Under the pieces are notes generated by a model. That model was not told the origin of the DNA. It made no database searches and saw only the letters and a program-made list of their open reading frames with translations. The position numbers and the translations under genes were made by a program. DNA of 64,000 nucleotides from Capnocytophaga ochracea DSM 7271 (GTDB lineage Bacteria > Bacteroidota > Bacteroidia > Flavobacteriales > Flavobacteriaceae): positions 2,545,001-2,609,000 of the forward strand of contig NC_013162.1 in NCBI RefSeq assembly GCF_000023285.1, in the 5' to 3' direction. Position 1 is the first letter of the stretch. Every line of letters begins with the position of its first letter. Shown piece after piece: positions 4,830-58,087 of this stretch.

Positions 4830-4930
4830 CGGTTGTTAGTTTTTTCAGACGTTAGTAATTACTATAACTTTCATATTATTTTGAGCATTGCCCAAAGTCG
4901 TTATACGACAAGCTATCAAAAAAACTTTGG

Positions 4931-4961
4931 CAAAGGTACAGTATTTATTTGAAATTAGCAA
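4931..4961 (-). promoter_or_regulatory. Promoter of rfbA
   Basis: Read on the minus strand, TACCTTTG (4931-4938) forms a -7 element with TTG 20 nt further upstream (4959-4961), matching the Bacteroidota consensus. It is embedded in a copy of the CTTTGGCAAAG repeat, so the repeat may have supplied or captured the promoter. Confidence 0.6.
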
Positions 4962-5139
4962 ATGTGCTATTAATACCACAATGCCAATTGTTGAAGGTAA
5001 AAGATAAAAGATAAAAGGTAAAAGGTAAAGTGTGAGCTCGTAGCGCAACAGACAGATAAAATTAGTAAATTAGTAAATGAGTCAATTAGCAAATGGGGAC
5101 GGGAGAATAAAATAATGTAGATATAAAAAGCTTATAGGA

Positions 5140-5385
5140 AAGACGAACAATGAACGAACAAAAGACGGTGCGAGCCGCACGGGCAGATAATGAAAAGACG
5201 AACAAAAGACGAAGAAAAGACGAACAAAGAACGAAGAAAAGACGAACAAAGAACGAAGAAAAGACGAACAAAAGACGAAGAAATGACGAACAAAAGACGA
5301 AGAAAAGACGAACAATGAACGAACAAATGACGAACAAATGACGGTGCGAGCCGCACGGGCAGATAAAGAAATGACGAAGGAAAAG
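5140..5385. repeat. Period-11 GACGAAC array with two AGC-loop hairpins
   Basis: About twenty 10-11 nt units of the form GACGAACAAAA, with variants GAACGAAG and GACGAAG, run through the segment. Two hairpin units GTGCG-AGC-CGCAC followed by GGGCAG interrupt or bound the array (5167-5186 and 5343-5362). The A-runs recur every 11 nt, close to one helical turn. Confidence 0.85.
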
Positions 5386-5513
5386 TGGGGGTAAGTTAAA
5401 GCTAAGATAAAAATAAAAAGAGGGTTATTAGTAGATTTCAACTTTGCCGAAGTTTGAAACTTTGGCAAAGTTCGTACATATAAACGAATAAATGACGGTG
5501 CAAGCCACACGGG
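5376..5513. repeat. 138-bp dispersed block, inverted copy at 48917-49055
   Basis: Starting at GAAGGAAA and running through a GTGGGGGTAAGTTAAAGCT segment, a palindrome (5441-5471) and a hairpin unit, this block matches the reverse complement of 48917-49055 almost throughout by eye. Differences are mostly single substitutions, and total length differs by one base. Confidence 0.85.
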
Positions 5514-5611
5514 AAAATAGACAATGAACAAAGGAAAAGTAGAGACAAGGTGGTGAAAAAGCGGAGAGCAAACGGAGAAAAACGACTGGAAAAATTAATT
5601 AGAAAATAATT

Positions 5612-5642
5612 TTGGGTAAATGAAAATAAATTCCTACCTTTG
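5612..5642 (+). promoter_or_regulatory. Promoter of the first GH6 gene
   Basis: TTG (5612-5614), a 20-nt spacer and TACCTTTG (5635-5642) match the Bacteroidota promoter. The leader to the ATG is about 25 nt. No equivalent is seen before the second GH6 gene, so the pair may form one transcript. Confidence 0.7.
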
Positions 5643-5673
5643 CCAAATTAACACATAAATAAGATTAAAGATT

Positions 5674-6726
5674 ATGAAGAAATTACTAGCCTTAATAGCT
5701 TTTTTATGGGTAATGACCGCCTGTGAAAAATCAGGGGAAGATACGCCCAAAAATACGCAAACTCAAATACCTTATGATTGGGATTTTTATTTGAAGCCTT
5801 CTCGGTTGTATGCAGTAAAAAATGAAAAAAATGCCGAGTTGAAAAAACTGTATTACCAAGTGTATGGTACGCCCTGCGGAGATTGGTATGATGGAATTAA
5901 CCCAAACAGTAAGGATAGCGACCTCTATCTAAAGAATTTTGTTGAAGGAGCTGAACACGCTCGCAAAACGCCTATTGTAGTGATTTACGGTATCCCCAAT
6001 CGCGATTGTGGCTCGTTTTCAAAAGGTGGACATCCTAATGCTGCTTCTTACAGAGCGTGGATAGATCGCGTAAGTGCCATTATTGGAAAACGCCGTGCAG
6101 TAGTAATTATCGAACCCGATGCTATTAACTACTGTAGACATAAAAAGGGCTCGGCTGAGTACAAAGAACGCGCTGATTTGCTTACTTATTGTGCAAGAAA
6201 GCTAAAAGAGAATAACCCTAATGTAGCGAGCTATATTCACGCTGGGAATTCTGTTTTGGTTACACAACACCCTGAAGCTGTTGCCAATGCCATTATAGAT
6301 GGAGGCTTACAATATATGCGTGGTTTCGCACTGAATGTTTCGGGCTTAGGAGGCACTGCTGAAGAACAAGCAGGAGCCGAGAAATTTGTAACTTACTTAG
6401 CTTCTAAAGGCTTTAAAGATGTGCATTACGTGATTGACACAGGGCGCAGTGGCATCAATAGACCTAAACACCAGAATGCAAATGCTCCTTATAACTCTTG
6501 CAATAACTTTAATGCAGCTTTAGGCCCGCGTAGCACTACCAAAACCACAGGTGCACACGCCGATGCTTATTTATGGATTAACGGAGGAGGTGGCTCTGAC
6601 GGTGAATGTAATATGGGAGCCCCCGCAGCGGGAGATCCTTATCCTGAATATACGAGACACTTGGTGCAAAACGCTATGAGAGTAAAGAGTATAGAGATTT
6701 TGGAAGTACCTCAAAACTTAAAATAG
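5674..6726 (+). CDS. Glycoside hydrolase family 6 lipoprotein (cellulase-like), copy 1
   Basis: A 350-residue predicted secreted lipoprotein: a short hydrophobic signal ends in VMTAC with C17 as the lipidated cysteine. The body shows GH6 landmarks in order: IPNRDC with D111, IIEPDA with D149 (position of the catalytic acid), YIHAGNS, VIDTGRSG at 254-260, and LWINGGGGSDGEC with D309. Family members invert beta-1,4-glucan linkages in cellulose-type chains. The general acid and the supporting Asp positions are all present, so it looks catalytically intact. It is compact with no obvious carbohydrate-binding module. A close paralogue follows 80 bp downstream. The true substrate is uncertain. Confidence 0.85.
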   Translation: MKKLLALIAFLWVMTACEKSGEDTPKNTQTQIPYDWDFYLKPSRLYAVKNEKNAELKKLYYQVYGTPCGDWYDGINPNSKDSDLYLKNFVEGAEHARKTPIVVIYGIPNRDCGSFSKGGHPNAASYRAWIDRVSAIIGKRRAVVIIEPDAINYCRHKKGSAEYKERADLLTYCARKLKENNPNVASYIHAGNSVLVTQHPEAVANAIIDGGLQYMRGFALNVSGLGGTAEEQAGAEKFVTYLASKGFKDVHYVIDTGRSGINRPKHQNANAPYNSCNNFNAALGPRSTTKTTGAHADAYLWINGGGGSDGECNMGAPAAGDPYPEYTRHLVQNAMRVKSIEILEVPQNLK

Positions 6727-6744
6727 TCGTAACACGACAGGCAA
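6726..6744. repeat. AGC-type hairpin unit abutting the GH6-1 stop codon
   Basis: GTCGT-AAC-ACGAC followed by AGGCAA begins on the final G of the TAG stop codon. The same arrangement occurs at the stop of the second GH6 gene (7985-8003), which continues into a CTTTGGCAAAG half-palindrome at 8010-8020. Confidence 0.75.
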
Positions 6745-6806
6745 TTATAAAATAACCTTTATCATTGCAAAGATAAGAATAATACAGATAAATAAGATTA
6801 ATGATT

Positions 6807-7985
6807 ATGAATAAATTACTATCCTTAGTAGCTTTTTTATGGGTAATGACCGCCTGTGAAAAATCAGGGGAAGAGAGCGACCCCTCTACACAGACTCCAA
6901 CAACGCAAACCTCTACTACACAAACTCCTACTACTCAGACCCCTACTACACCTCCTATTACGCCTCCGGTTACTCCTCCTATTCCACCTAACCCACCACA
7001 AGGTAAAAAGCCGGTAGCTTATGACTGGGATTTTTACTTGGAGCCCTCTCGGTTAGACGTAGTAAAAAATGAAAAAAATGCCGAGTTGAAAAAGCTGTAT
7101 TACCAAGTGTATGGTACGCCCTGCGGAGGTTGGTATGACGGCGGTGTTAGTCCTGGTAGTGGTGGTAAAGAGAAAAATGACCGTTGGCTTAAAAACTTCG
7201 TTGAGGGAGCAGAACGCGCTCGCAAAACGCCTATTGTGGTGCTTTACGGTATTCCCAATCGCGATTGTGGGTCGTTTTCAAAAGGAGGGCACCCTAATGC
7301 TGCTTCTTACAAAGAGTGGATAGACCGTGTAAGTGCCATTATTGGACAACGCCGTGCGGTGGTTATTATTGAACCTGATGCCATTAACTACTGCGGTCAC
7401 CCAAGAGGCTCAGCTAAATACAATGAGCGTGCTGAACTGCTTAATTATGCCGCTGAAAAACTAAATAAGAACAACCCTAATGTAGTGAGCTATATTCACG
7501 CTGGGAATTCTGATTTGGTCACAAAACACCCTGAAGCTGTTGCCAATGCTATTATAGATGGAGGTTTAAAATATATGCGTGGTTTCGCACTGAATGTTTC
7601 GGGCTTAGGAGGCACTGCCGAAGAACAAGCCGGAGCCGAGAGATTTGTAACTTACTTAGCTTCTAAAGGTTTTAAAGATGTGCATTACGTGATTGACACA
7701 GGGCGCAGTGGTATTAATAGACCTAAACACCAAAATGCAAATGCTCCTTATAACTCTTGCAATAACTTTAATGCAGCTTTAGGCCCGCGTAGCACTACCA
7801 AAACCACAGGTGCACACGCCGATGCTTATTTGTGGATTAACGGAGGAGGAGGCTCTGATGGTGAATGTAATATGGGAGCCCCCGCAGCGGGAAAGCCTTA
7901 TCCTGAATATACAAGACACTTGGTGCAAAACGCTATGAGAGTGAAAAGTATAGAGATTTTGGAAGTACCTCAAAACTTAAAATAG
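6807..7985 (+). CDS. Glycoside hydrolase family 6 lipoprotein, copy 2 with Thr/Pro linker
   Basis: A 392-residue paralogue of the preceding gene. It keeps the same lipoprotein signal (VMTAC) and the same GH6 landmarks (NRDC, EPDA, DTGRSG, GGSDGEC). It adds a linker of about 45 residues made of repeated TQTPTT units and then proline-rich segments, which would hold the enzyme away from the membrane. The C-terminal 150 residues are almost identical to copy 1, while the region after WYDG differs and is slightly longer. The ATG at 6807 aligns with the start of copy 1; an ATG two codons upstream is less likely. No separate promoter is evident. Confidence 0.85.
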   Translation: MNKLLSLVAFLWVMTACEKSGEESDPSTQTPTTQTSTTQTPTTQTPTTPPITPPVTPPIPPNPPQGKKPVAYDWDFYLEPSRLDVVKNEKNAELKKLYYQVYGTPCGGWYDGGVSPGSGGKEKNDRWLKNFVEGAERARKTPIVVLYGIPNRDCGSFSKGGHPNAASYKEWIDRVSAIIGQRRAVVIIEPDAINYCGHPRGSAKYNERAELLNYAAEKLNKNNPNVVSYIHAGNSDLVTKHPEAVANAIIDGGLKYMRGFALNVSGLGGTAEEQAGAERFVTYLASKGFKDVHYVIDTGRSGINRPKHQNANAPYNSCNNFNAALGPRSTTKTTGAHADAYLWINGGGGSDGECNMGAPAAGKPYPEYTRHLVQNAMRVKSIEILEVPQNLK

Positions 7986-8056
7986 TCGTAACACGACAAG
8001 CAATTAGAAACTTTGGCAAAGTGTGTGAAGAGTCGTAGCACAACAGAAGAGACATT

Positions 8057-8659
8057 TTATTTACATTGCCATTGGAAGTCTTCGACTTTAGATTGCATTT
8101 CGGGACGGTACTCATAGTGCCACCACTCTGAGAAAATAGATTTAAAGTTATATTTGTTGAGTACACCCTTCAACAACTTGCGATTCTCAAGTACCTTTTT
8201 AGGGAGGGTCGTGCAAGTGTGATGTGCTTTTTTACCAAAGAAATCAAAAGGAGTACCCATATCTAATTCCTTGCCTTGTGCATCTACAAGGGTAAGATCG
8301 ACAGCAGCCCCGCGATTGTGTTTAGAACCTTTCGCGGGGTTTGCTACGTAGTGGGTACCTGGAAGTATCTTCCACATCTTTTTCTGTACCGAAAGCGGTC
8401 GGTAGCAGTCGAACAATTTAATGCGGTATCCCAACGATTTAAACTCTTCATTAGCTTTTACCAAAGCCTTTGCAGTACTCTTGCGGAGATAGCATTCTCC
8501 ACAATCATATACTGCTTGTTTGAGAAAATTATCGGGGGTGGCGTATTTCATATCGAATACAAAGTCATTAGAAAGGCTTCTGAGGAGCACAAAATCATTC
8601 TGCTGTGCTAAAAGTGAGGACACTGATAATAATATAAAAAGTTGTAAGAGGTATTTCAT
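8057..8659 (-). CDS. D-alanyl-D-alanine dipeptidase (VanX/DdpX family, M15D)
   Basis: A 200-residue zinc peptidase with a cleavable signal (MKYLLQLFILLSVSSLLAQ). The SxHxxGxAxD zinc motif is seen as SKHNRGAAVD and the second zinc/catalytic motif as EWWH near the C-terminus. FDCYRPLSVQKKMW is also a family hallmark. The enzyme hydrolyses D-Ala-D-Ala in the periplasm, in salvage or cell-wall turnover. No van resistance genes are nearby, so a resistance role is not supported. A start 18 nt upstream (8677) would lie inside the -7 promoter box, so 8659 is chosen. Confidence 0.9.
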   Translation of the reverse strand: MKYLLQLFILLSVSSLLAQQNDFVLLRSLSNDFVFDMKYATPDNFLKQAVYDCGECYLRKSTAKALVKANEEFKSLGYRIKLFDCYRPLSVQKKMWKILPGTHYVANPAKGSKHNRGAAVDLTLVDAQGKELDMGTPFDFFGKKAHHTCTTLPKKVLENRKLLKGVLNKYNFKSIFSEWWHYEYRPEMQSKVEDFQWQCK

Positions 8660-8674
8660 AAGAGTGATTTTCGG

Positions 8675-8682
8675 CAAAAGTA
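8675..8682 (-). promoter_or_regulatory. -7 element of the dipeptidase gene
   Basis: On the minus strand this reads TACTTTTG, matching TAnnTTTG, 16 nt from the chosen ATG. It decides the start codon, since the alternative ATG overlaps it. Confidence 0.6.
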
Positions 8683-8702
8683 CAAAAAAACTTAAAAAAG
8701 GC

Positions 8703-8732
8703 TTGCTATATGTAACAAATTTACTACTTTTG
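8703..8732 (+). promoter_or_regulatory. Promoter of smpB
   Basis: TTG (8703-8705), a 19-nt spacer and TACTTTTG (8725-8732). The ATG of smpB follows only 4 nt after the -7 box, so the transcript may be leaderless. It is divergent from the dipeptidase promoter. Confidence 0.7.
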
Positions 8733-8736
8733 TGCT

Positions 8737-9192
8737 ATGATTCAGAAAACAGTACAAATACTCAACAAACGGGCAAAATTTGAATATGAAATCCTCGACA
8801 AATACACGGCGGGGATTGTGCTCGTGGGTACCGAAATAAAGTCTATACGAATGGGAAAAGCCTCGATAGCTGAGAGTTTTTGCGAGTTTAACGATAAAGG
8901 AGAGCTTTTCGTAATCAACTCTACCATTGAAGCATATGACTTTGGCACCTATTACAACCACCGCCCAAAAAGTGAACGCAAACTGCTTTTGCAGAAAAAA
9001 GAACTTCGCAAACTCAATAAAGAAGTGAAAAATAGCGGACTTACCATCGTACCTCTCAAACTCTTTATTAACGAAAAAGGCTTGGCTAAAATGGATATAG
9101 CCTTAGTACGCGGTAAGAAATTGTACGATAAACGCGAAACTATTAAAGACCGTGATAACAAGAGAAACTTGGATAGGCTGATGAAGAAGTAA
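8737..9192 (+). CDS. smpB: SsrA-binding protein SmpB
   Basis: A 151-residue RNA-binding protein that delivers tmRNA to stalled ribosomes for trans-translation. Family landmarks include [10 protein letters not shown] near the N-terminus, [18 protein letters not shown], the [11 protein letters not shown] segment, [20 protein letters not shown] and a basic C-terminal tail with [14 protein letters not shown]. Length is normal. The promoter lies so close that translation probably starts at or next to the 5' end of the mRNA. The tmRNA gene itself is not in this window. Confidence 0.96.
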
Positions 9193-9206
9193 GTCCTCAC
9201 CCCGTT

Positions 9207-9227: not shown

Positions 9228-9267
9228 CAAACTGTGAATTAATTATTAACAATTAATCATTAGATAA

Positions 9268-9750
9268 GTGTATAGAGATTTTAAAGAACTCCCCGATGAT
9301 GCCCGTGTGTGGGTATACCAATGCAACCGTAGCTTTACAGAAGAAGAGCAAAAGCAACTGCATACACAATTAGAAGAATTTATAAACCACTGGATGGTGC
9401 ACGGTAAGGATTTGCTATCATCATTTGAATTGCGCTATAACCGATTTATAGTTATAGGAGCATTACCCGATGCCCACGGTGTAGGAGGTTGTTCTCTTGA
9501 TGCTTTAGCGCACTTTATTCAAGAGCTTGAAGCCCAATACAACGTTACATTGCTTGACCGTATGAATGTGAGTTACCGTCAAGGTGAACACATCGCCTAT
9601 AAAAACCTTGCCGATTTCAAAAAAATGGTAAAAGAAAAAGCAGTATCGGCACAGACTATAGTGTTCAACAATTTGGTAAATACTAAAATAGAATGCGAAG
9701 AGAATTGGGAAGTGCCTTTGGAAGACAGCTGGCACAACCGGTTTTTATAG
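9268..9750 (+). CDS. Conserved Bacteroidota protein of unknown function (GTG start)
   Basis: A 160-residue soluble protein starting with GTG, reading MYRDFKELPDDARVWVYQCNR. Homologues in Flavobacteria are sometimes labelled 'ABC transporter ATPase', but there is no Walker A or other ATPase motif, so that label looks wrong. The conserved-looking segments RYNRFIVIGALPD, FNNLVNT and the C-terminal SWHNRFL are what I recognise of the family. No signal or membrane segment is seen. The TAG stop shares its G with a downstream hairpin array. Confidence 0.75.
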   Translation: MYRDFKELPDDARVWVYQCNRSFTEEEQKQLHTQLEEFINHWMVHGKDLLSSFELRYNRFIVIGALPDAHGVGGCSLDALAHFIQELEAQYNVTLLDRMNVSYRQGEHIAYKNLADFKKMVKEKAVSAQTIVFNNLVNTKIECEENWEVPLEDSWHNRFL

Positions 9751-9826
9751 TGCGAGCCACAGTGCGAGCCGCACAAGCAAAAAGTGCGAGCCACACAGGC
9801 AATAAGTGCGAACCACACAGACAATA
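9750..9826. repeat. Array of four AGC-loop hairpin units
   Basis: Four degenerate units follow each other: GTGCG-AGC-CAC, GTGCG-AGC-CGCAC, GTGCG-AGC-CACAC and GTGCG-AAC-CACAC, most followed by A/G-GGCA or a close variant. The first begins on the G of the upstream TAG stop codon. Confidence 0.8.
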
Positions 9827-9838
9827 AAAGAAGTATGA

Positions 9839-9869
9839 ACTTTGCCAAAATCTGAAACTTTGGCAAAGT
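9839..9869. repeat. CTTTGGCAAAG palindrome between convergent genes
   Basis: ACTTTGCCAAAATCT and AAACTTTGGCAAAGT face each other with one base between, giving an imperfect stem of about 13 bp. It lies between two convergent genes and could act as a transcription end for either, although it lacks a long T-tract. Confidence 0.7.
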
Positions 9870-9919
9870 GTAGCGACGCAAATGCGATTTTAAGACTTTT
9901 CGGACAGCCTTTTTTATTG

Positions 9920-11116
9920 TTAATATATCTGTCCTCTTAGTAAGTCTTCGAAGGTTTCTGCCTTTCTGATAAGTTTAGCTTCCCCATTCTGCCACAATAC
10001 TTCTGCTGGACGCAAGCGTGAATTGTAGTTGCTCGCCATAGTGTAGCAATAGGCACCTGCATTGTGAAAGCACAATATATCGCCCTCAGTAATCTCAGCT
10101 ATTTGTCGGTTGGAGGCAAAGGTATCGGTCTCGCATATATACCCGACTACTGAATAGAAACGATTCTTACCTTCGGGGTTAGAAATGTTTTCGATATAAT
10201 GATTAGCCCCGTAGAACATTGGTCGGATAAGATGATTGAAACCAGAGTCGATGCCTGCAAATACCGTAGAAGTGGTTTGCTTTACTACATTCACCTTTAC
10301 TAAAAAGTAGCCTGCTTCACTTACTAAAAACTTACCAGGTTCGAAAGCTAATGTAAGGTTGCGACCGTACTCCTTGCAGAAATCAGCAAAGCGACTGCTG
10401 AGACGTTCGCCCAACTCTTCTATATTGGTTTGTATATCTCCCTCTTTATAAGGCACTTTAAAGCCACTGCCAAAGTCGATAAATTGTAAATCCTTAAAGT
10501 GTTTAGCGGTTTCAAAGAGTATTTCGGCAGCGTATAGGAACACATCAATATCTAAAATATCACTACCTGTGTGCATATGGATACCGTTGATGTGCATCTT
10601 TGTATTCTCGACGATGCGCAAGATATGCGGTATTTGATGAATGCTAATACCAAACTTACTATCGATATGCCCTACCGAAATATTGCTATTACCGCCTGCC
10701 ATCACGTGTGGATTGATACGAATACACACGGGTATCTCAGGGTGTTGTGTGCCAAACTGCTCCAAGAACGAAAGATTATCGATGTTGAGCTGTACTCCTA
10801 AGCGCATAGCCTCCTCAATTTCGTCCATTGAGACACCATTAGGCGTAAAAATAATTTGCTGAGGGTCAAAACCTGCCAGCAATCCCAACTGTACTTCCTG
10901 AATAGAAACGGTATCGAGACCAGCCCCCAAGTCCTTCATCAATTTCAAGATAGAAATATTAGAAAGGGCTTTCATTGCATAGTTGATGCGCAACTTGGGT
11001 ACTGAGGCAAAGGCATTGGTAAGTCGGTTATATTGAGAAGCAATCTTCTGGGCATCATATACATATACAGGGCTACCGTAAGTATTTGCTATGTTTAGTA
11101 AATCGTTTATTTTCAT
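9920..11116 (-). CDS. lysA: Diaminopimelate decarboxylase
   Basis: A 398-residue PLP enzyme of the alanine-racemase-fold decarboxylases, making L-lysine from meso-diaminopimelate in the cytoplasm. The PLP-binding lysine is in YAMKALSN (about residue 49). HTGSD, GGG-like GSGFKVPY, EPGKFLVSEAG and the CETDTFASNR segment (substrate-binding Cys and Asp) are visible. The last part includes GAYCYTMASNYNSRLRP. Length is typical. It is transcribed alone from its own promoter. Confidence 0.95.
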   Translation of the reverse strand: MKINDLLNIANTYGSPVYVYDAQKIASQYNRLTNAFASVPKLRINYAMKALSNISILKLMKDLGAGLDTVSIQEVQLGLLAGFDPQQIIFTPNGVSMDEIEEAMRLGVQLNIDNLSFLEQFGTQHPEIPVCIRINPHVMAGGNSNISVGHIDSKFGISIHQIPHILRIVENTKMHINGIHMHTGSDILDIDVFLYAAEILFETAKHFKDLQFIDFGSGFKVPYKEGDIQTNIEELGERLSSRFADFCKEYGRNLTLAFEPGKFLVSEAGYFLVKVNVVKQTTSTVFAGIDSGFNHLIRPMFYGANHYIENISNPEGKNRFYSVVGYICETDTFASNRQIAEITEGDILCFHNAGAYCYTMASNYNSRLRPAEVLWQNGEAKLIRKAETFEDLLRGQIY

Positions 11117-11149
11117 TGAATATACTGTTGTTTAAATGATTATAGGGCA

Positions 11150-11157
11150 CAAAAGTA
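11150..11157 (-). promoter_or_regulatory. -7 element of lysA
   Basis: On the minus strand this reads TACTTTTG, about 34 nt upstream of the lysA ATG. Confidence 0.6.
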
Positions 11158-11731
11158 CAAATAATTAGCAAAATGGCAAATAATATTAATAATACCAGAA
11201 ATGCCAATAATACTAAATTAATGACAAATGATGGTGTGAGCCACACAGGCGGGTGTGAGCCACACGGGCAGATAAAATTAGTAAATGAGTCAATTAGCAA
11301 ATTAGCAAATGGGGTGGGAGAATAAAATAATGTAGAAAGAAGCCTTATTTAATGATTAATGGTTAATGATTAATTTAGGAGAAGCTTATAGGAAAGACGA
11401 ACAAAAGACGGTGCGAGCCACACAGGCAGTCGTAGCACGACAGGCAGATAATGAAAAGACGAACAAAAGACGAACAAAAGACGAACAAAAGACGAACAAA
11501 AGACGAACAATGAACGAAGAAAAGATAAATCTAAGGTGGAAATAAGAAGAAGGTTATTAGTAGAATTCATACTGCAACGGCGAAGGGTATATGAAGATGG
11601 GGTTGTTTTATGTGTGAAAAACAGTAGTTTTCAGATATTTAAATAATAATTTCAAATTAATTAAACGACTGGAATACAGTATATAATAAATTAGTATACA
11701 CAAAAATAATCTGAAAAAAGAGAAAAAAGTT
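11158..11731. other. Repeat-mosaic gap between lysA and rpmB
   Basis: No gene is supported. It contains the 9-mer module in reverse (11182-11219), two GTGTG-AGC-CACAC hairpins (11232-11270), TTAGCAAAT units (11288-11310), ATTAATG-type octamers (11350-11375), an AAGCTTATAGGAA module, a hairpin pair plus period-11 array (11386-11515), and a degenerate relative of the 138-bp block (11520-11570). The flanking genes are divergent. Confidence 0.75.
11386..11515. repeat. Period-11 array with two hairpins
   Basis: After AAGCTTATAGGAA and one GACGAACAAAA unit come hairpins GTGCG-AGC-CACAC and GTCGT-AGC-ACGAC, each followed by AGGCAG. Then five exact-period units of GACGAACAAAA follow (11458, 11469, 11480, 11491, 11502). 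An inverted, rearranged counterpart lies at about 49170-49290. Confidence 0.85.
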
Positions 11732-11761
11732 TTGCCGTTTCAAAAAATAGTTATACCTTTG
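11732..11761 (+). promoter_or_regulatory. Promoter of the rpmB-rpmG operon
   Basis: TTG (11732-11734), a 19-nt spacer and TACCTTTG (11754-11761) fit the consensus well, as expected for ribosomal protein genes. Confidence 0.75.
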
Positions 11762-11802
11762 CGCCCTGAATATAAATAACACATTAATAAATAGAGAAAA
11801 AA

Positions 11803-16045: not shown

Positions 16046-16076
16046 CAAAAGTAATACTTTTTTTATATTTGCACAA
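16046..16076 (-). promoter_or_regulatory. Promoter of the S41 protease-reductase pair
   Basis: On the minus strand TACTTTTG (16046-16053) is preceded by TTG (16074-16076) with a 20-nt spacer, matching the consensus. Confidence 0.65.
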
Positions 16077-16203
16077 ATTTTGTACCAGATAAGAAGTAAA
16101 ACTAAATACCGATACGTGAAGTGTGAAAAACAAAATTTTCTGTTTTACAGCATAAAAAGTAGCTCTTTTTTTCAACTAAAATAGAAGATTCCTTCGGTTT
16201 TCA

Positions 16204-16432
16204 TACACTTATTGTTCGTTCATCGTTCGTCATTCGTTCATTTGCCCGTGCGGCTCGTACCGTCATTTGTTCGTCATTTGTTCGTCATTTGTTCGTCATT
16301 TGTTCGTCATTTGTTCGTTCATTGTTCGTCTTTTCATTATCTGCCTGTCGTGCTACGACTGCCCGTGCGGCTCGCACGTGCCTGTCGTGCTACGACCTCG
16401 CACTTTACCTTTTACCTTTTATCTTTTACCTA
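16204..16432. repeat. Repeat mosaic immediately upstream of mutL
   Basis: Reverse-oriented copy of the intergenic modules: ATTGTTCGTTCAT units, a hairpin (16242-16261), at least five units of CGTCATTTGTT with period 11 (16261-16320), three alternating hairpins GTCGT/GTGCG/GTCGT type (16341-16397), and TTTTACC heptamers (16401-16431). The heptamers end 7 nt before the mutL ATG. The rest of the gap back to 16053 holds the divergent protease promoter and AT-rich sequence; no gene is seen. Confidence 0.85.
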
Positions 16433-16438
16433 AATAAA

Positions 16439-24771: not shown

Positions 24772-25287
24772 CTATGAACCCTCTTGCTCTCTTCGTTTTG
24801 AATTAGACAAATGGTGAAAAACTCCGATTTTTAGGAAAAGAATGAACGAACAAAATATCCTCACCCCAGCCACATACTCTCCTATTCGGAGACTTCTCCC
24901 AAGGAGAGGGAGGGTAGTAACGGAAAAATGAGACAAACAATGAACGAACAAATGACGGTGCGAGCCGCACGGGCAGGTAATGAAAAGACGAACAATGAAC
25001 GAAGAAAAGACGAACAAATGACGAACAAATGACGAACAAATGACGAAGCTAAACTGAAGCTAAGACAAAGTTATAATCTTAGAAAACTAAATACTAATTG
25101 CTTTTTTAAGGTAATAAAACTTTGAAAAAAACGCAATGATTTTAGAGTTTTTATGATTTTTAGACTTCAATAAAGTAAATGAGATTTACTTCGGACAATC
25201 AGGATTTAAATAGCTATTATTCAAACATATAAAATTATATATAAATAAAAAAGTGATTAAAGTAGCTTTTATTCAAAATATTATTCG
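24772..25287. repeat. Repeat-mosaic gap between the AI-2E transporter and lpdA
   Basis: No gene is supported. It contains a degenerate CCTCACCCC...CTCC-CAA-GGAG element (24858-24912), one GTGCG-AGC-CGCAC hairpin (24957-24976), and period-11 GACGAACAAATG units (24983-25045) ending in GACGAAGCTAAACTGAAGC, a relative of the 138-bp block. The remaining 200 bp are AT-rich sequence leading to the lpdA promoter. Confidence 0.8.
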
Positions 25288-25295
25288 TAACTTTG
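25288..25295 (+). promoter_or_regulatory. -7 element of lpdA (first copy)
   Basis: TAACTTTG matches TAnnTTTG, 36 nt before the ATG. Confidence 0.55.
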
Positions 25296-25330
25296 TAGCC
25301 TAATATCAAACTTGATAAATTTTAAAAGAA

Positions 25331-27637: not shown

Positions 27638-27659
27638 ATTTCTTCTATAAATAGCGTTG

Positions 27660-27667
27660 CAAAAATA
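27660..27667 (-). promoter_or_regulatory. -7 element of recO
   Basis: On the minus strand TATTTTTG matches TAnnTTTG, about 23 nt before the recO ATG. Confidence 0.5.
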
Positions 27668-27730
27668 CAAAAAAGACTTCAATAGGACGTAATTGATGAT
27701 ATAAATGAAAGGTAACGCCAATAATACCAA

Positions 27731-27886
27731 TGAGAAAATGAGAGAATGAGAAAATGAGAGAATGAGAAAATGAGAGAATGAGAAAATGAGAGAATGAGAA
27801 AATTAGAGAATGAGAAAATTAGAGAATGAGAAAATTAGAGAATGAGAAAATTAGAGAATGAGAAAATTAGAAAATTAGAGAATTAG
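27731..27886. repeat. 16-bp tandem repeat (VNTR)
   Basis: Four units of TGAGAAAATGAGAGAA (27731-27794) are followed by about four of TGAGAAAATTAGAGAA (27795-27858), then partial TTAGAAAATTAGAGAATTAG. The two unit types are blocked rather than mixed, as expected from slippage or unequal crossing-over. A 9-mer module (27715-27730) adjoins it on the left. Confidence 0.9.
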
Positions 27887-28440
27887 TAAATGGGGTACGA
27901 GCTTGAGTTAGAGGAATGAGGCTGTGCCTTGTGAAGTAACTTTTTGGAACATTAACTTTGGCAAAGGTCGTAGCACGACGGGCAATAGAAAATTAGAGAA
28001 TTAGGAAATTAGCAAATGGGTAGTGATAAAAAAGGTTTTTTGACGGGTCTGACTTGTCGGACAAATTGGACTGGTCTGAGTTATCGGAGGAAAACGAAAA
28101 ATATAAAAAGTGAGTTGGAAGGATTTTTGATGAAAAAAGGGTGTAAGGAGGGTACAGTTAGCTTATAGAGAGCTTATAGGAAGCTTATACGAATCTTGGA
28201 CGATTGGTATAGAAAGGGTATATAAATGATTGATTCACATCATAATACGACAACATCAAAAATGTTAAAAACGGGGTTACGAGGCGAAAGAAAGAGAAAA
28301 GGCACTAGGCATCAGGCCATAGGCAATAGGGGGAAGTATGACGGAAAGAAGAAGGAATAATTAGGAAATTAGTAGGTTAGTGGGAATATTGGAGAATCTT
28401 GGAGGAAGTTTGAATATAATGAAAGCATTTGTAATTCGCA
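27887..28440. other. Non-coding gap upstream of rlmD
   Basis: No gene is supported in these 550 bp. It contains a CTTTGGCAAAG half-element joined to a GTCGT-AGC-ACGAC hairpin with GGGCAA (27954-27985), TTAGAAAATTAG units, and the AAGCTTATAGGAAGC block (28167-28216) with an inverted copy near 37.4 kb. The rest shows nothing recognisable. Confidence 0.7.
28167..28216. repeat. Dispersed block, inverted copy at 37407-37460
   Basis: A segment with AGCTTATAGGAAGCTTATAC and then GAATCTTGGACGAT matches the reverse complement of the 37.4-kb gap without mismatch over about 34 nt, and with a few differences over about 50 nt. Confidence 0.85.
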
Positions 28441-28449
28441 ATTATTTTG

Positions 28450-28457
28450 TACCTTTG
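28450..28457 (+). promoter_or_regulatory. -7 element of rlmD
   Basis: TACCTTTG lies only 8 nt before the ATG at 28466, so the leader would be one to three nucleotides or absent. Confidence 0.65.
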
Positions 28458-28465
28458 CACCCATA

Positions 28466-35004: not shown

Positions 35005-35084
35005 CAACCGATTTTAAATAGCAAAAGGCGACACCCCGAAAAGCCTTTAACAGAGTAGGGAGTAATTTTAATTTTCAGTTTTTT

Positions 35085-48510: not shown

Positions 48511-48562
48511 AAAGTTAATTTGCTAATCTGCTAATTTTCGAATCTGCTAATTTGCTAATTTG

Positions 48563-48721
48563 TTAATTAGCTTTTTTAAGAGTATAATTTGGTAGCGAGT
48601 TCACTATCATTAATGCTGTTACCTTCTTGGTCGAACATTCTTCGTAAGTACTTACATACGAACAACCATAGGTTGTAAGCAACAGCGCTACCACACTGAA
48701 TATTAATAAGATTCTTTTTAT
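48563..48721 (-). pseudogene. Possible small lipoprotein with an ATA start (decayed gene)
   Basis: A frame of 52 codons begins ATA and reads IKRILLIFSVVALLLTTYGCS, a near-perfect lipoprotein signal with a lipobox cysteine. It has no ATG, GTG or TTG; one base change (ATG to ATA) would explain this. A -7 box (TACTTTTG on the minus strand, 48753-48760) lies about 32 nt upstream. After the Cys another frame reads DQEGNSINDSELATKLY, which looks more protein-like, so a frameshift is also possible. Function unknown. Confidence 0.35.
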
Positions 48722-48789
48722 TCTTACTAATATTTTGTTTTAAAATCGGGTGCAAAAGTAGTGAATAAACTCCAAAAAGAGACATAAAT

Positions 48790-49447
48790 AAGTAAAAAAT
48801 TCACTTTACCTCAATTTAATCCTCCTCTTAACCTCAACGTACCCCCACCCTTCCTTCGCTTATTCGTTATCTGCCCGTGCAGTTCGCACCGTCATTTGTT
48901 CGTTCTTTCTCCATCTGCCCGTGCGGCTCGCACCGTCTTTTGTTCATTTATATATACAAACTTTGCCAAAGTTTGAAACTTTGGCAAAGTTGAAATCTAC
49001 TAATCACCCTCTTTTTATATCTATCTTAGCTTTAACTTACCCCCACATTTCCTTCGTTCTTTGTTCGTCATTCGTTCGTCATTCGTTCGTCTTTTGTTCG
49101 TCTTTTGTTCGTCTTTTGTTCGTCTTTTGTTCGTCTTTTGTTCGTCTTTTGTTCGTCTTTTGTTTATTTGCCTGTCGTGCTACGACTGCCTGTGCGGCTC
49201 GCACCTGCCTGTCGTGCTACGACTACCCGTGTGGCTCGCACCATCTTTCCTATAAGCTTCTCCCAAATTAATCATTAATCATTAAACAATCGGTATTATT
49301 AGCATTTTTGGCATTGTGGCATTAAACTCATTTATCCATTTGATAATCAATAAATATATAAGAATATATACCCCTTATGCCAGCCTTTCAAATACAAATA
49401 AAATATAATTTTTTAGGACTTTATTTTTCTATGTTCAGTAAAATATA
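48790..49447. repeat. Repeat-mosaic gap between prfC and secDF
   Basis: Largest mosaic in the window: hairpins at 48870-48890 and 48916-48935, the 139-bp block (48917-49055) with perfect palindrome 48960-48990, about nine units of TTTTGTTCGTC with period 11 (49070-49165), four alternating hairpins (49168-49242), AAGCTT/TTCCTATAAGC module, ATTAATC octamers, and the 9-mer module (49292-49328). No gene is supported; flanking genes diverge. Confidence 0.85.
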
Positions 49448-49455
49448 TATCTTTG
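49448..49455 (+). promoter_or_regulatory. -7 element of secDF
   Basis: TATCTTTG, 43 nt before the ATG. No TTG at the usual -33 distance. Confidence 0.5.
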
Positions 49456-49497
49456 CCGTTTGAAGATATAAAATAAGTAAATTATTTAATTAAAAAA

Positions 49498-52601: not shown

Positions 52602-52623
52602 CCTTTCAAAAAAACTAAGTAAT

Positions 52624-54030: not shown

Positions 54031-54040
54031 TTAATGCTAT

Positions 54041-56389
54041 ATGAAATCAACCATCTTATTTTGCCTATTTTGCCTCCCTTTGTGCGCTTTTTCGCAATAT
54101 AGTATTACAGGAAACCTAATCAGTAAAGAACAACCTGTGAGCAACTGTGTCGTTAAGCTCCTCTCGCAGGGCAAAGTTGTGCATACTACCGCTTCAAATG
54201 AAAAGGGTACTTTTTCTTTTGAAAACCTTTCAGCAGGGCAATACCAGCTAAATGTGGTTTCTATTTTCTATGAGCCTTTTCAGCAAGAGCTAATGGTAGA
54301 TAAGAATATCGCATTAGGCAATATTGTGATTACCGAGAAAGTAGAAAACCTTAAAGAAGTAACTGTTACTGGTCGGAAAAATCCTGTCATCCCTACTGAA
54401 ACGGGCTCTCTTATTGAAGTAACAGGCACACGGCTCGCCTATCGTTCTGCGGTGACTGATATTTTAGAGTATGCTCCCAGCATCTCCACTACTAATGGCT
54501 TGAAAATCTATGGCAATGACGATATTTTAATAATGCTCGACGGTAAAGAATTACACCTCGATAAAGACAAAATAGCGTTTTTCTTAAATAAAATACCCGT
54601 CAAGAGTATTAAAAGTATTGAAGTAGTTGATAAGATTGATGCCAGTGTCGATAGCTCAAAAGCAGGCGTCATAAAAATAACTACTATTGCAAAATACGGC
54701 TGGGTAGGCTCGTTAAGTCACAATTTTTTTTACGACCCAAAATTAGGTTATACAGACGATGCAACACTGTTTTATTCTACTGATAAATATCGCCTTTTTA
54801 CTAACCTATACCACAGCCGACATCACTCTTTTAGCGATGATAAGGAACAATCTCTTTTGAGAAATAACAATACTCTTTATCAAAATACCTCAGAACTACA
54901 GTTAAAGCGGAAAGAAAACGGAATAACGCTGGGAGCAGATTACTATTTCAATAAAAAATCTACTCTTAGCTTTCTGTATATCTATAATTATGATGCTGAT
55001 GCCGACAAAGAATACAATGGTTTAACTAACGTGTATAACAACAATGTGCTTAACCATCATTTTAGTACGAACAGAAAATGGGACGCCATATCTAATGACC
55101 ACTCTTTCTCACTGAACTTCGACCGCACTACTGACTCCTTAGGTTCAAATATCAAAATAGCCTTAGACTTGGTTAAGAAAAAGTATGAAAGTCCTCTTAC
55201 TGAAAAAGATATTTATTACCGCACAGTAACTACCGAAGAAAATACTGAGCAAGATTCATACTCTTACAGCGATGTTTACGCCTTCAAAACTACTTGGAGT
55301 AAGTTTTTTACCTCTAAATACCCTTCAGAAAAGCAGAACTTAGTGCTTGGATTGCGTTATTCATTGGTAGACAATCAAGATGAGTTTGCTTATTTTGATA
55401 TTTTGCCTACCCAGAAGTTAAAAAACACTACTCTTTCTAATGATTTCTCCTTCAAAGAACACATCTTCGCCACTTTTGCCAATTACACTTTCCCTCTTAC
55501 TGAAAAATCAAAGTTCTCAGTAGGCTTACGTTCTGAATATAATTACAATACGTTTAGCAATCATTTAGATAATTTCCATAACGACAACACACAATGGTCA
55601 CTCAATGCCCTCTATACTACCAAGCTCGGCAAAGAAACCTTCTTCTTTTCTGCTCGTCGATGGTTCAGCAGGGTGAATTACAGTCTGTTCAACCCTACCT
55701 ATATCAAAAGTTCTCCTACCGATGCCTATACAGGTAATAAAGATTTAAGTCCCATAGAAGGATATACGTTGCAATCGGGTTATAGGTGGAAAAAAGTAGA
55801 TATGGCTCTGGCTTACCGCTATTCCGAAAAAAATGTGCTTAACATTCCTACCGCTATTGTTGGCGTAATAACTACTCGCCCCGAGAATGTAGGTTATAAA
55901 AACGATGTGTTTTTGTTCCTATCCCGTTTTACTAAGTTCACCGATTGGTGGGAGTGCAATGCAAAATTCACAGGGGGTTATTTTAACTTCAAATATTTAG
56001 GGAATGCTTTCAACTCCTTATATGCCGAGTTTTACACCTCACAGCGAATTTACCTCCCCAAAGATATCGAAGCCTCTCTCACTTACCAATATACCTCAAC
56101 CAATAAGAGTTTGTATATCAAAAACTATTACAATCACCAGCTCAACTTTAACCTAATGATTCCTCTTTCTGATTCTTTCCAGTTAAACGCTTCATTAGAT
56201 GATATATTTAACACCTCTCGTTCTAAAAGCGAATACGATTTCAACGGCGTTTATAATACATCTTATTATAAATTTAACACCCGTAGTTTTTATATTGGTA
56301 TCAATTATGATTTTGCGAAAGGTAAAAAAGTGAATGACAATATAAGAAACACAGGAGCAGAAGACGAGAAAAACAGACTTAAACGATGA
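54041..56389 (+). CDS. TonB-receptor-like outer membrane beta-barrel protein
   Basis: A 782-residue protein with signal MKSTILFCLFCLPLCAFSQ. Residues about 20-100 form a carboxypeptidase-regulatory-like domain (SITGNLISKEQPVSNCVVKLL), then a plug-like region (VTVTGRKNPVIPTETGSLIEV ... EYAPSISTTNGLKIYGNDDILIMLDGKEL) and a long barrel ending in FYIGINYDFAKGKKV. It fits the outer-membrane beta-barrel family (OMP_b-brl_3) related to TonB-dependent receptors. No SusD partner is adjacent. Ligand unknown. Confidence 0.85.
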   Translation: MKSTILFCLFCLPLCAFSQYSITGNLISKEQPVSNCVVKLLSQGKVVHTTASNEKGTFSFENLSAGQYQLNVVSIFYEPFQQELMVDKNIALGNIVITEKVENLKEVTVTGRKNPVIPTETGSLIEVTGTRLAYRSAVTDILEYAPSISTTNGLKIYGNDDILIMLDGKELHLDKDKIAFFLNKIPVKSIKSIEVVDKIDASVDSSKAGVIKITTIAKYGWVGSLSHNFFYDPKLGYTDDATLFYSTDKYRLFTNLYHSRHHSFSDDKEQSLLRNNNTLYQNTSELQLKRKENGITLGADYYFNKKSTLSFLYIYNYDADADKEYNGLTNVYNNNVLNHHFSTNRKWDAISNDHSFSLNFDRTTDSLGSNIKIALDLVKKKYESPLTEKDIYYRTVTTEENTEQDSYSYSDVYAFKTTWSKFFTSKYPSEKQNLVLGLRYSLVDNQDEFAYFDILPTQKLKNTTLSNDFSFKEHIFATFANYTFPLTEKSKFSVGLRSEYNYNTFSNHLDNFHNDNTQWSLNALYTTKLGKETFFFSARRWFSRVNYSLFNPTYIKSSPTDAYTGNKDLSPIEGYTLQSGYRWKKVDMALAYRYSEKNVLNIPTAIVGVITTRPENVGYKNDVFLFLSRFTKFTDWWECNAKFTGGYFNFKYLGNAFNSLYAEFYTSQRIYLPKDIEASLTYQYTSTNKSLYIKNYYNHQLNFNLMIPLSDSFQLNASLDDIFNTSRSKSEYDFNGVYNTSYYKFNTRSFYIGINYDFAKGKKVNDNIRNTGAEDEKNRLKR

Positions 56390-56461
56390 TGATTAGTGGT
56401 TAATACTGAATAGTTAATGATTAGTGGTAAATACAGTGATAAAAATAATTAAGAAAAAGTT

Positions 56462-56491
56462 TGTTTCTTTCAAAATAAATAGTAACTTTGC
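56462..56491 (+). promoter_or_regulatory. Promoter of the proline dehydrogenase gene
   Basis: TTG (56462-56464), 19-nt spacer, TAACTTTG (56484-56491). Confidence 0.7.
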
Positions 56492-56520
56492 CTCAACTAA
56501 CCTTTAATCATTAAAATATT

Positions 56521-57702
56521 ATGAGTAGATTTTCCGATACCCAAACCGCTTTTGCCCTCAAAAGCCAATCCGAACTCAACTGGGCTTACCGCCTTTTTAA
56601 ACTTATTGGCAGTAATACCCTTACTCGTGTGGGCACTGCCCTTACCAACTTCTCCTTAAAACTGCGCCTGCCTGTCGAAGGACTCATCAAGCGCACCGTC
56701 TTTAAGCAGTTCTGCGGAGGTATCTCCGAACAAGACTGCCTTCCCGTAATCCAAAAGATGCATCAAAAAGGAGTAGGCTCTGTACTCGACTATTCCGTAG
56801 AAGGTAAAGAAGACGAATCCTCTATCGAAGCTACTTTCGAAAAAACAATGGAAACCATCGATTTTGGTAATCTCCATCGCAACGAAGGTATTCCTATTGT
56901 GGTATTTAAACCTACAGGATTTGGGCGTTTTGCCATCTTCCAAAAACTCACCGAGAAAAAAGCCCTTACCCCCGAAGAAGAAAAAGAATGGGAGCGCATC
57001 AAATCTCGTTTCGACGCAGCCTGCAAGCGCGCCTACGAGTATAAAATTCCTATTTTGGTAGACGCCGAAGAAAGCTGGATGCAAACTGCTGCCGATGACC
57101 TCGTAGAAGAGATGATGCAGAAGTACAACAAAGAAGAACCTATCGTATACAATACCTTGCAAATGTACCGCCACGACCGTTTGCCTTACCTAAAAGAACT
57201 TTATGAACGTGCCGTAGATAAAGGCTTCTACATAGGCGTAAAAATCGTACGAGGTGCCTATATGGAAAAAGAAAACGAACGCGCTGCCGAGCTAGGCTAC
57301 CCCACTCCCATTTGCCCCAGCAAGCAAGCAACCGACGATAATTATAACGCTGTTGTGCGCTATATTATTGACCATATCGATAGGATTGCGCTCTTTGCAG
57401 GTACTCACAACGAAGAAAGTGCTGCCCTAGTAATGGATTTGATGCACAAAAAAGGCTTGCAACCTAACGACAAACGCGTGTGGATAGCACAACTCTACGG
57501 TATGAGCGACCATATCAGCTTCAATGCCTCTAAGGAAGGCTATAACGTAGCCAAGTATTTGCCTTTTGGTCCCGTGCGCGAAGTGATGCCTTACCTTATC
57601 CGCCGAGCCGAAGAAAATACATCAGTAGCAGGGCAAACAGGACGTGAACTCACTTTGCTAAAAGCAGAGAAAAAGCGCCGAAAAGAAACTGCTAATCAGT
57701 AA
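56521..57702 (+). CDS. Proline dehydrogenase
   Basis: A 393-residue FAD-dependent enzyme of the (beta-alpha)8 ProDH/PutA-N family converting proline to P5C. KRTVFKQFCGG, GVGSVLDYSVEGKE, VDAEESWMQTAADDL, NTLQMYRHDRLPYL, GVKIVRGAYMEKE and AGTHNEESAALV are family motifs. It is the single-domain form without a fused P5C dehydrogenase, as in most Bacteroidota. Single-gene transcript with a strong terminator. Confidence 0.95.
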   Translation: MSRFSDTQTAFALKSQSELNWAYRLFKLIGSNTLTRVGTALTNFSLKLRLPVEGLIKRTVFKQFCGGISEQDCLPVIQKMHQKGVGSVLDYSVEGKEDESSIEATFEKTMETIDFGNLHRNEGIPIVVFKPTGFGRFAIFQKLTEKKALTPEEEKEWERIKSRFDAACKRAYEYKIPILVDAEESWMQTAADDLVEEMMQKYNKEEPIVYNTLQMYRHDRLPYLKELYERAVDKGFYIGVKIVRGAYMEKENERAAELGYPTPICPSKQATDDNYNAVVRYIIDHIDRIALFAGTHNEESAALVMDLMHKKGLQPNDKRVWIAQLYGMSDHISFNASKEGYNVAKYLPFGPVREVMPYLIRRAEENTSVAGQTGRELTLLKAEKKRRKETANQ

Positions 57703-57726
57703 AAATAAGTTTTTATTATTCGTTGC

Positions 57727-57768
57727 AACTCTCGTTTTTGCACTTCTCGCAAAAACGAGAGTTCTTTT
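57727..57768 (+). terminator. Terminator of the proline dehydrogenase gene
   Basis: AACTCTCGTTTTTGC and GCAAAAACGAGAGTT form a perfect 15-bp stem around ACTTCTC, followed by a T-tract. Confidence 0.92.
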
Positions 57769-57789
57769 TATTCCCAATTACTACCCTCT

Positions 57790-58056
57790 TACCTTCGCTC
57801 ATTGTTCGTCATTTCTCTATCTGCCCGTTCGAATCGCACCGTCTTTTGTTCGTTCTTTGTTCGTTCTTTGTTCGTTCTTTGTTCGTTCTTTGTTCGTCTT
57901 TTGTTCGTTAATTATTTATCCGCCCGTGTGGCTCACACTATCTGCACGTGCGGCTCGCACCTGTTCGTGTGGCTCACACCAGCCCGTGAGGCTCGCACTG
58001 TCACTCGCCATTGATTTGGTATTTTTGGCATTATTGGCATTATTGGTATTAAATTA
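57790..58056. repeat. Repeat-mosaic gap upstream of ftsX
   Basis: Reverse-oriented modules: hairpins with GCT loop (57820-57840), five units of CGTTCTTTGTT with period 11 (57843-57910), four degenerate hairpins (57920-58000), then the 9-mer module (58018-58056). It lies between a terminator and the ftsX promoter. No gene is supported. Confidence 0.82.
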
Positions 58057-58057
58057 G

Positions 58058-58087
58058 TTGCTAATTCAAAAAAAAGTTGTACTTTTG
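58058..58087 (+). promoter_or_regulatory. Promoter of ftsX operon
   Basis: TTG (58058-58060), 19-nt spacer, TACTTTTG (58080-58087). The TTG sits directly at the end of the 9-mer module. Confidence 0.7.

Follow-up and report, generated by a model that had tools for sequence, protein, structure and literature searches.

The genome of Capnocytophaga ochracea DSM 7271 (closed, 2,612,925 bp, i.e. 2.61 Mb) carries in the spacers between its genes a family of composite repeats made of short tandem arrays and a small hairpin. They came to attention in a stretch of 64,000 nucleotides of contig NC_013162.1 (bases 2545001-2609000, hereafter the window), where an initial annotation had described six gaps built from the same modules and had proposed a non-autonomous intergenic element, possibly mobilised by a tyrosine (Y1) transposase. 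The arrays are dispersed over many loci, follow each other in a recurrent order, are homogenised locally, change their unit between species and lie upstream of promoters; the hairpin obeys a simple rule, and Y1 transposases are absent from the genome. We consider it probable, at roughly 60%, that the elements are minisatellite-like mosaics which are homogenised locally and spread between loci by recombination within promoter-upstream spacers, and that they belong to no known kind of transposon.

Composite elements of short tandem arrays

Two evenly spaced sets of sequence, 400 kb each, were sampled in addition to the window (864 kb in total), and all gaps of at least 60 bp free of N runs were taken, 361 in number. 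From the first sample and the window 112 arrays detected by Tandem Repeats Finder (TRF) were kept, 92 of them intergenic, 16 coding and 4 in between. Periods of the intergenic arrays are mostly 7, 8, 9 and 11 bp and multiples of these; 22, 33 and 99 bp also occur. Recurrent units are GACGAACAAAA, AGTGGGTCTAC, AGCTTATAGGA, TTAATGA/TTAATGG, AAAGGTA, AATTAGCA/AAATGAGG and AATGCCAATAATACCA. The first of these, GACGAACAAAA, is the period-11 unit of the GACGAAC array. Doubled and searched with up to two mismatches, it is found 400 times in the genome, the reversed pattern not once; with at most one mismatch there are 300 matches here, three in the Capnocytophaga genome G010, one in G008 and none in 17 other species of the genus. 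In the first sample and the window, noncoding DNA is autocorrelated at exactly 11 bp (z 31.7), with high values at lags 22 and 33 and negative ones at 10 and 12, and the 11-bp signal survives masking of the arrays (z 5.6).

Read on the array strand, the modules recur in the order heptamers, AGCTTATAGGA, AGTGGGTCTAC, GACGAACAAAA with hairpins, core B (AAGTTAAAGCTAAGATAAAAATAAAAAGAGGGTT) and an AACTTTG inverted pair. The initial annotation was thus right about the architecture: modules of the kinds it named are present in all six gaps, not each module in each gap, and their order recurs across gaps, many of which hold only part of it. Units stand head-to-tail with no intervening spacers and number from 5, the minimum counted, to 35 per array. 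Within an array they differ at 1.37 of 11 bases, as compared to 2.10 +/- 0.06 when the 359 units are shuffled among the 38 arrays. Tandem units, local homogenisation and variable number characterise a minisatellite, and 5 to 35 units inside a recurrent order characterise a composite with a variable-number tandem module. Clustered regularly interspaced short palindromic repeats (CRISPR), already set aside by the initial annotation, are ruled out by head-to-tail units without unique spacers. Ordinary slippage products, which the same annotation had named as the outcome that would deprive a mobile element of support, account for the locally homogenised arrays; they account neither for the recurrent module order nor for the hairpin.

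A hairpin with variable stem and fixed loop and tail

The hairpin consists of a 5-bp stem of varying sequence, an AGC loop and an RGGC tail on the 3' side. In 118 kb of noncoding DNA there are 55 perfect motifs, compared with 0.0 in shuffles of the AGC scan. When the scan was opened to every perfect 5-bp stem and every 3-nt loop in front of RGGC, the loop was AGC in 55 cases, and the next commonest loop appeared 6 times. Six stems occur (GTGCG 27, GTCGT 18, GTGTG 6, GCCGT 2, GTACG 1, TCCGT 1); as all are different and all are paired, pairing has been kept while the sequence changed. For the alignment and the strand tests, hairpins less than 500 bp from another on the same strand were left out. 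In the resulting alignment of 60 hairpins, one per cluster, conservation is concentrated in the stem-loop and RGGC, and 6 of the 60 lie inside called genes. With two mismatches allowed, the pattern has 164 matches in this genome and the reversed control none. Among 20 Capnocytophaga species, each represented by one genome, 15 contain it, five of them with a single and possibly weak match, and the reversed control is 0 in all. Being a short extragenic palindrome in many copies, the hairpin resembles the repetitive extragenic palindromic (REP) type; a GTAG tag at its end was not found, the constant flank being RGGC on the 3' side.

Of 36 hairpin-to-hairpin distances no longer than 330 bp, 19 are multiples of 11, four of these being 22-bp tandem hairpins; hairpins are thus often copied together with the arrays. 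In several gaps the hairpin directly adjoins a AACTTTGCC...GGCAAAGTT pair on the side of its left arm. The hairpin strand is indifferent to gene direction (10 to 10), and a bias with regard to the replication strand was rejected for this genome (23 vs 15, P 0.26). Neighbouring hairpins, taken at sites at least 2 kb apart, lie on the same strand in 37 of 53 cases in C. sputigena (P 0.002, from 71 of 81 matches) and in 34 of 46 in G010 (P 0.014), which we regard as a lead for a replication-linked mover. One hairpin common to these two species lies in an 8-mer array with AAATTG on both sides; these flanks belong to the array unit, and orthologous gaps elsewhere are too diverged for target duplications to be read from them. 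Four loci of C. bilenii (L155, L157, L158, L160) show other recurrent words, e.g. GGGCACAAGCTGCAAGCTTGCGCCAGCGG and CACATACTCGGCTGCGCCAGCTCG, which may represent additional hairpin families of this type. At one locus of G003 (L170) the hairpin stands at the edge of a larger repeat starting with AACCAAAAGTGCGAGCCGCACGGGCATTAAAAAATAA, present in two copies about 7 kb apart.

Elements upstream of promoters

Gaps were counted as element-bearing if they contain a hairpin or a period-11 array of at least three units. This holds for 61 of the 361 gaps, namely 25 of 67 divergent, 32 of 250 co-directional and 4 of 44 convergent ones. Divergent gaps are enriched (P 5.8e-6; P 0.004 among gaps of at least 200 bp), with P values that are rough because gap length is partly a result of the element. 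None of the 44 convergent gaps contains an array (P 0.014, or 0.07 if the test is limited to long gaps). Of 21 co-directional gaps with arrays, 16 have the array on the gene strand and 5 on the opposite strand (P 0.027). Gap-type and orientation tests were not significant with the first sample alone and became so with both samples. The window agrees with the claim that four of its six gaps are divergent (gaps 1, 2, 3 and 5); gaps 4 and 6 are co-directional.

The motif TAnnTTTG, which we take to be the Bacteroidetes -7 box consensus, occurs between array and start codon in 55 of 71 array-facing genes, as compared to 6.5 +/- 2.4 in shuffled sequence (identical gaps left out, targeted loci included). 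Where the box exists, the array end precedes it by a median of 150 bp and never by less than 49 bp. Most elements thus appear to occupy the stretch that separates one transcription unit from the promoter of the following one. Gap 6 displays this arrangement, with terminator-like hairpin, element and promoter in succession; in three relatives the gap measures 168, 143 and 154 bp instead of 420 bp, and G001, G009 and G013 have no 11-bp array there. Some CTTTGGCAAAG palindromes coincide, by reading of the sequence, with promoter -7 boxes (TACCTTTGCC, near 4925-4940 and 5635-5650).

Two RNA-related explanations were rejected. A role in untranslated regions is contradicted by the arrays ending mostly upstream of the -7 box and by the indifference of the hairpin to gene direction. 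Concerning RNA families, the sole Rfam match in the window at gathering scores, a DUF805b cis-regulatory RNA at 35025-35061 (+, 42.3 bits), falls outside the gaps.

Unit turnover among Capnocytophaga species

The orthologous gaps are not alike from species to species. Their sequences were compared up to a length of 2.5 kb, with the mutL gap of C. bilenii and gap 4 of G013 left out and gap 4 of C. bilenii included in part. Upstream of mutL (gap 3) 391 bp compare with 124 bp in C. sputigena, 293 in G010, 201 in C. leadbetteri, 295 in G013, 2033 in G008 and about 5.6 kb in C. bilenii. The length of gap 4 is 560 bp, as against 200 in G010 (no array) and 258 in G008; the gap measures 1.8 kb and reads as an extra gene in C. 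sputigena, C. bilenii and C. leadbetteri, and about 7 kb in G013. The gap at 9750-9920 has inverted 8-mers instead of hairpins in C. sputigena and G010. At three loci orthologous to 9751-9919 and gap 6 (L173, L174, L183), terminator-like hairpins are formed by inverted 8-mers (AATTAGCAAAT...ATTTGCTAATT), which suggests that 8-mer arrays and terminators share an origin.

For four genes, namely mutL, the 995-aa gene, lpd and ftsX, the upstream regions of six relatives were tested for a period of 11 bp, making 21 comparisons. In 15 of the 21 no 11-bp array was detected (P above 0.01), among them the mutL upstream regions of C. sputigena and G010. In the other six the relative has an array of its own unit upstream of the same gene, in five of them with a CGAA core: at mutL in C. 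leadbetteri, G013 and G008, at the 995-aa gene in G013 and weakly in C. leadbetteri, and at lpd in G013. The G008 array upstream of mutL (locus L178; TTCGAAGCACC TTCGAAGGACG ATCGAATCACG) is divergent with a CGAA core, and MutL identity is 71%. Other 11-bp units of relatives are AACGAAGGATA in G013, CGAAGGATCAG in C. bilenii and ATCCTTCGGTG in C. leadbetteri. Own-unit arrays upstream of the same genes are suggestive of array sites that are old while the unit changed, as in satellite DNA. These counts have to be seen against the background in sampled gaps, where 11-bp arrays occur in 4 of 18 in C. leadbetteri, 6 of 17 in G013, 3 of 25 in G008, 2 of 21 in C. bilenii, 1 of 14 in C. sputigena and 0 of 17 in G010; thus G013 shares arrays at 3 of 4 sites, yet 6 of 17 of its sampled gaps score as well.

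Intergenic arrays reach a density per 100 kb of 19-25 in this genome; the relatives, sampled over 60 kb each close to chosen genes, have 25 (C. bilenii), 20 (G008), 13 (C. leadbetteri and G013) and 3-5 (C. sputigena and G010). For 50 outgroup loci the value is 2.0, and for 24 more distant loci 3.5. G010 and C. sputigena are about 94% identical and share both alignable hairpin sites (2/2); four other C. sputigena hairpins have no counterpart in the stretches compared. A G008 composite (L164) is part of a segment whose DNA matches window positions 5301-6923, which comprise the GH6 gene and part of its upstream element, at 95% identity. As MutL protein is only 71% identical, this composite probably moved with the GH6 gene, in what the sequences indicate as a probable recent gene transfer involving G008.

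The data thus support an intergenic family that is dispersed and modular and varies in its sites from one species to another, as gaps 3, 4 and 6 illustrate. The comparison of empty and filled sites that the initial annotation had called for does not yield plain insertion or absence, since 15 of the comparisons lack an array and six have one of another unit. The latter favour the recombining mosaics and weaken the simple insertion reading only slightly.

Search for a mover and for element ends

The profile PF01797 (Y1_Tnp), which gave matches in an E. coli control search, has none in this genome nor in any of the 15 hairpin-bearing species among the 20 searched, other transposases not having been searched for; only G016 and G017 match, and both are without the hairpin. 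Mobilisation by a Y1 transposase or a REP-associated tyrosine transposase (RAYT) was therefore rejected. Three composites used as queries match others over segments of 45-468 bp (67-99% identity) whose ends are ragged, and pile-ups of the three reveal no common termini. In the outer 120 bp of six composites, whose ends were picked by eye, five have no terminal inverted match of at least 7 bp and the sixth has one of 7 bp, so that discrete element ends are not apparent. From the proposal of a non-autonomous intergenic element the dispersed modular family survives; the Y1 mover and discrete ends find no support, and simple insertion is slightly weakened.

Distribution on the chromosome

At least 40 period-11 array loci are among the matches listed, taken together with those of the window; the lists are complete to 2346 kb (forward) and 2512 kb (reverse), the remainder lying inside the array-bearing half. 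No listed locus lies between 355.1 and 1493.1 kb. This largest empty arc of 1138 kb (1.14 Mb) was equalled in 0 of 200000 random circular placements of 40 loci, taken as independent, and 38 of the 40 lie within a quarter chromosome of 2323.8 kb. In the second sample, gaps with period-11 arrays number 9 in the array half and 0 in the other. One degenerate array at about 715 kb lies inside the otherwise empty arc; accordingly this half has lost good copies or never gained them. The module GTGTAGCTTACGCTACAGAAA behaves in the opposite manner: the array half has 0 gaps containing it, as compared to 4 plus 4 in the remaining half (P 0.041, 0.047). Hairpins and palindromes do not differ between the halves, and core B occurs in too few sampled gaps for this comparison. 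A confinement of TTAATGG heptamers (16 vs 4 gaps in sample 1) was not repeated in sample 2 (7 vs 5) and was discarded.

A skew fit places the axis at about 1.0 and 2.48 Mb, GC skew being weak. The two ribosomal RNA (rRNA) operons that were located, at 722.7 kb (-) and 1698 kb (+), are both directed outward from the interval that they enclose. Together these make the array-bearing half terminus-proximal, with caution owing to dnaA at 2323.5 kb (L214), which lies in the array half near the skew-inferred terminus and far from the inferred origin at about 1.0 Mb. The position of dnaA had suggested an origin-proximal array half, a reading overturned by the skew fit and the two rRNA operons. Strand polarity of the arrays along the arms was rejected, our own count of the listed loci on the skew axis being 22 leading and 18 lagging.

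Features of the window

The gaps are listed in Table 1. Besides these, a 782-aa open frame at 54041-56389 (+; 54080-56389) lacks a match in the corresponding regions of C. bilenii, C. leadbetteri and G008; in G013 a short fragment matches. It sits between two genes conserved in those relatives and is possibly a lineage-specific insertion.

Table 1. Repeat-bearing gaps of the window and their modules (TRF: limits called by Tandem Repeats Finder)
Gap	Coordinates	Strand	Neighbours	Modules
Gap 1	4830..5673	+	NTP transferase (-) and GH6 (+), divergent	9-mer stretch; heptamer array 4994-5029 (TRF 4994-5029); 8-mer array 5059-5094; AGCTTATAGGAA at 5129; period-11 array ~5141-5343 (TRF 5193-5343) with hairpins 5168, 5344; core B ~5391-5430; AACTTTG inverted pair ~5441-5474
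Extra gap	9751..9919	+	convergent	three hairpins; palindrome; AACTTTGCC/GGCAAAGTT pair
Gap 2	11117..11802	+	divergent	hairpins 11234, 11253; 8-mers 11275-11310; heptamers 11349-11374; AGCTTATAGGAA at 11383; array ~11394-11525 (TRF 11454-11525) with hairpins 11411, 11430
Gap 3	16049..16438	-	upstream of mutL, divergent	array 16205-16334 (TRF 16261-16334); hairpins 16348, 16365, 16385; heptamers 16404-16431 (TRF 16404-16431); own 11-bp arrays in G009, G013, G008
Gap 4	24772..25330	+	co-directional	CTCCCAAGGAGAG hairpin ~24893-24912; array ~24936-25052 (TRF 24983-25047) with hairpin 24958
Further gap	27638..28465	+		16-bp array 27729-27886, nearly perfect (TRF: 9.9 copies, 97% matches); palindrome 27956; TCGTAGCACGA hairpin 27968; AGCTTATAGGAA 28171
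Gap 5	48511..49497	-	divergent	8-mers 48516-48572; hairpin 48921; AACTTTG pair 48959-48995; core B ~49005-49045; array 49048-49164 (TRF 49060-49164); four alternating hairpins 49175-49242; AGCTTATAGGAA 49247; heptamers ~49265-49285; 9-mers ~49296-49325
Gap 6	57703..58121	-	co-directional	terminator-like hairpin 3' of Pro_dh gene; array ~57795-57909 (TRF 57845-57909); hairpins 57926, 57948, 57967; 9-mers 58016-58051 (TRF 58016-58051); then -7 promoter of FtsX gene

Discussion

Slippage or unequal exchange within arrays plus recombination among dispersed copies is the most economical reading of these elements. Short arrays of 7, 8, 9 and 11 bp between transcription units would gain and lose length and become uniform through strand slippage or unequal exchange, and segments with several successive arrays would be copied between spacers via homologous recombination or gene conversion. 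At least once, a segment of this kind would have become common to two species along with its flanking gene. The REP-like mini-hairpin, spread genus-wide and embedded in the arrays, would be copied along, often in 11-bp register. Slippage and conversion would be the engines, and the arrays would mostly be tolerated rather than required. Several observations weigh against this reading. Conversion alone does not explain the missing GACGAAC arrays in 1138 kb nor the preference for divergent gaps; drift alone would not preserve pairing in stems that vary; the agreement of array strand and gene strand hints at selection; and the sharing of arrays at orthologous sites, in view of the background in G013, is at most suggestive.

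One alternative is a non-autonomous mobile element of a new kind, in which the RGGC-tailed hairpin or the whole composite is moved by an enzyme other than Y1. The genus-wide hairpin with its fixed loop and tail and variable paired stem, the sites that differ between species, the same-strand neighbours in C. sputigena and G010, a pattern which insertion into the lagging strand could produce, and the shared hairpin flanked by AAATTG within an 8-mer array all speak for it. We nevertheless consider it unlikely, since inverted ends and common termini were not found in the composites compared, the search for a mover in hairpin-bearing species, confined to Y1_Tnp, was negative, the AAATTG flanks are part of an array unit, and in this genome the hairpin strand shows no significant replication bias. 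Elements acting as regulatory or insulating spacers upstream of promoters, as tandem protein sites or as supercoil buffers between divergent promoters, would account for the -7 box downstream of the arrays, the excess in divergent over convergent gaps, the 16 to 5 strand agreement and the own-unit arrays upstream of the same genes. This is improbable in view of the 15 orthologous upstream regions without an 11-bp array, the indifference of the hairpin to gene direction and a unit number ranging from 5 to 35.

The confinement to half of the chromosome invites a further explanation, in which the 11-bp arrays mark the terminus half for a putative segregation or nucleoid protein, as matS marks the terminus domain for such a protein in E. 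coli. Like matS, the arrays are confined to one chromosome domain, with one degenerate copy outside, and the empty arc, the clustering around 2323.8 kb and the second sample all agree. Set against this are the arrays' lack of strand polarity along the arms, relatives without the period-11 sequence, the degenerate copy in the empty half and an axis based on weak skew and two rRNA operons with dnaA in the same half; we hold it to be very improbable. In a bolder combination the genus would keep a species-specific 'satellite' vocabulary upstream of its promoters, the 11-bp satellite marking the terminus half and GTGTAGCTTACGCTACAGAAA the other as a position code of domains, and the stem-AGC-RGGC hairpin would represent mobile mini-hairpins of a new class. 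This, too, seems quite unlikely to us. The locally homogenised mosaics spread by recombination thus remain our preferred reading.

Among known systems, the pneumococcal BOX element is nearest in architecture. As described in PMC3049150, it is a composite, dispersed intergenic repeat of 67-637 bp with a variable-number tandem middle module, terminal inverted repeats and target duplications, enriched between convergent genes. Our elements share the composite, dispersed build with a variable-number tandem module; unlike BOX, they have no inverted ends that we found, have arrays in 0 of 44 convergent gaps and contain several different tandem modules in succession. The hairpin resembles REPs in being a short intergenic stem-loop beside a fixed tag. 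Of the GTAG and CGTC superfamilies treated in PMC3733652, the CGTC REPs are nearest, with a stem of 8-9 bp, a loop of 4-5 nt and no dedicated transposase, whereas our hairpin has a 5-bp stem, a 3-nt loop and an RGGC 3' tag. In the arrays it often abuts GACG, the complement of CGTC, yet by our own count GACG precedes only about 7-9 of 60 hairpins. Nearest to the heptamers are the TAACTGA arrays, dispersed intergenic 7-bp tandem repeats of irregular phylogenetic distribution in five Bacteroidetes (PMC4679880). Those stand a few nt before start codons, unlike the elements described here with their several unit lengths, recurrent order, hairpins and promoter-upstream position. Two passages of the genome paper (PMC3035226) mention, as regards repeats, 'CRISPR repeats 1' and repetitive regions in the assembly, and the words intergenic and palindrom- do not appear in the paper's text. 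Among the matches listed in our literature searches there was no paper on these Capnocytophaga repeats.

The units of eukaryotic satellite DNA are homogenised within a species and an array and differ between related species. The present arrays resemble it in their homogenised, species-specific units, and differ in being short and in occupying bacterial promoter-upstream spacers. To our knowledge, reports of satellite-like concerted evolution in bacterial spacers are rare; in the present case it is dense and traceable from species to species within one genus. The confinement to half of the chromosome provides a testable link of repeat spread to chromosome folding or replication position. The hairpin rule, a variable stem with fixed loop and tail and no Y1 enzyme, raises the same question as the CGTC REPs, i.e. 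how such sequences multiply without a dedicated transposase. Moreover, the arrays could serve as markers for strain typing.

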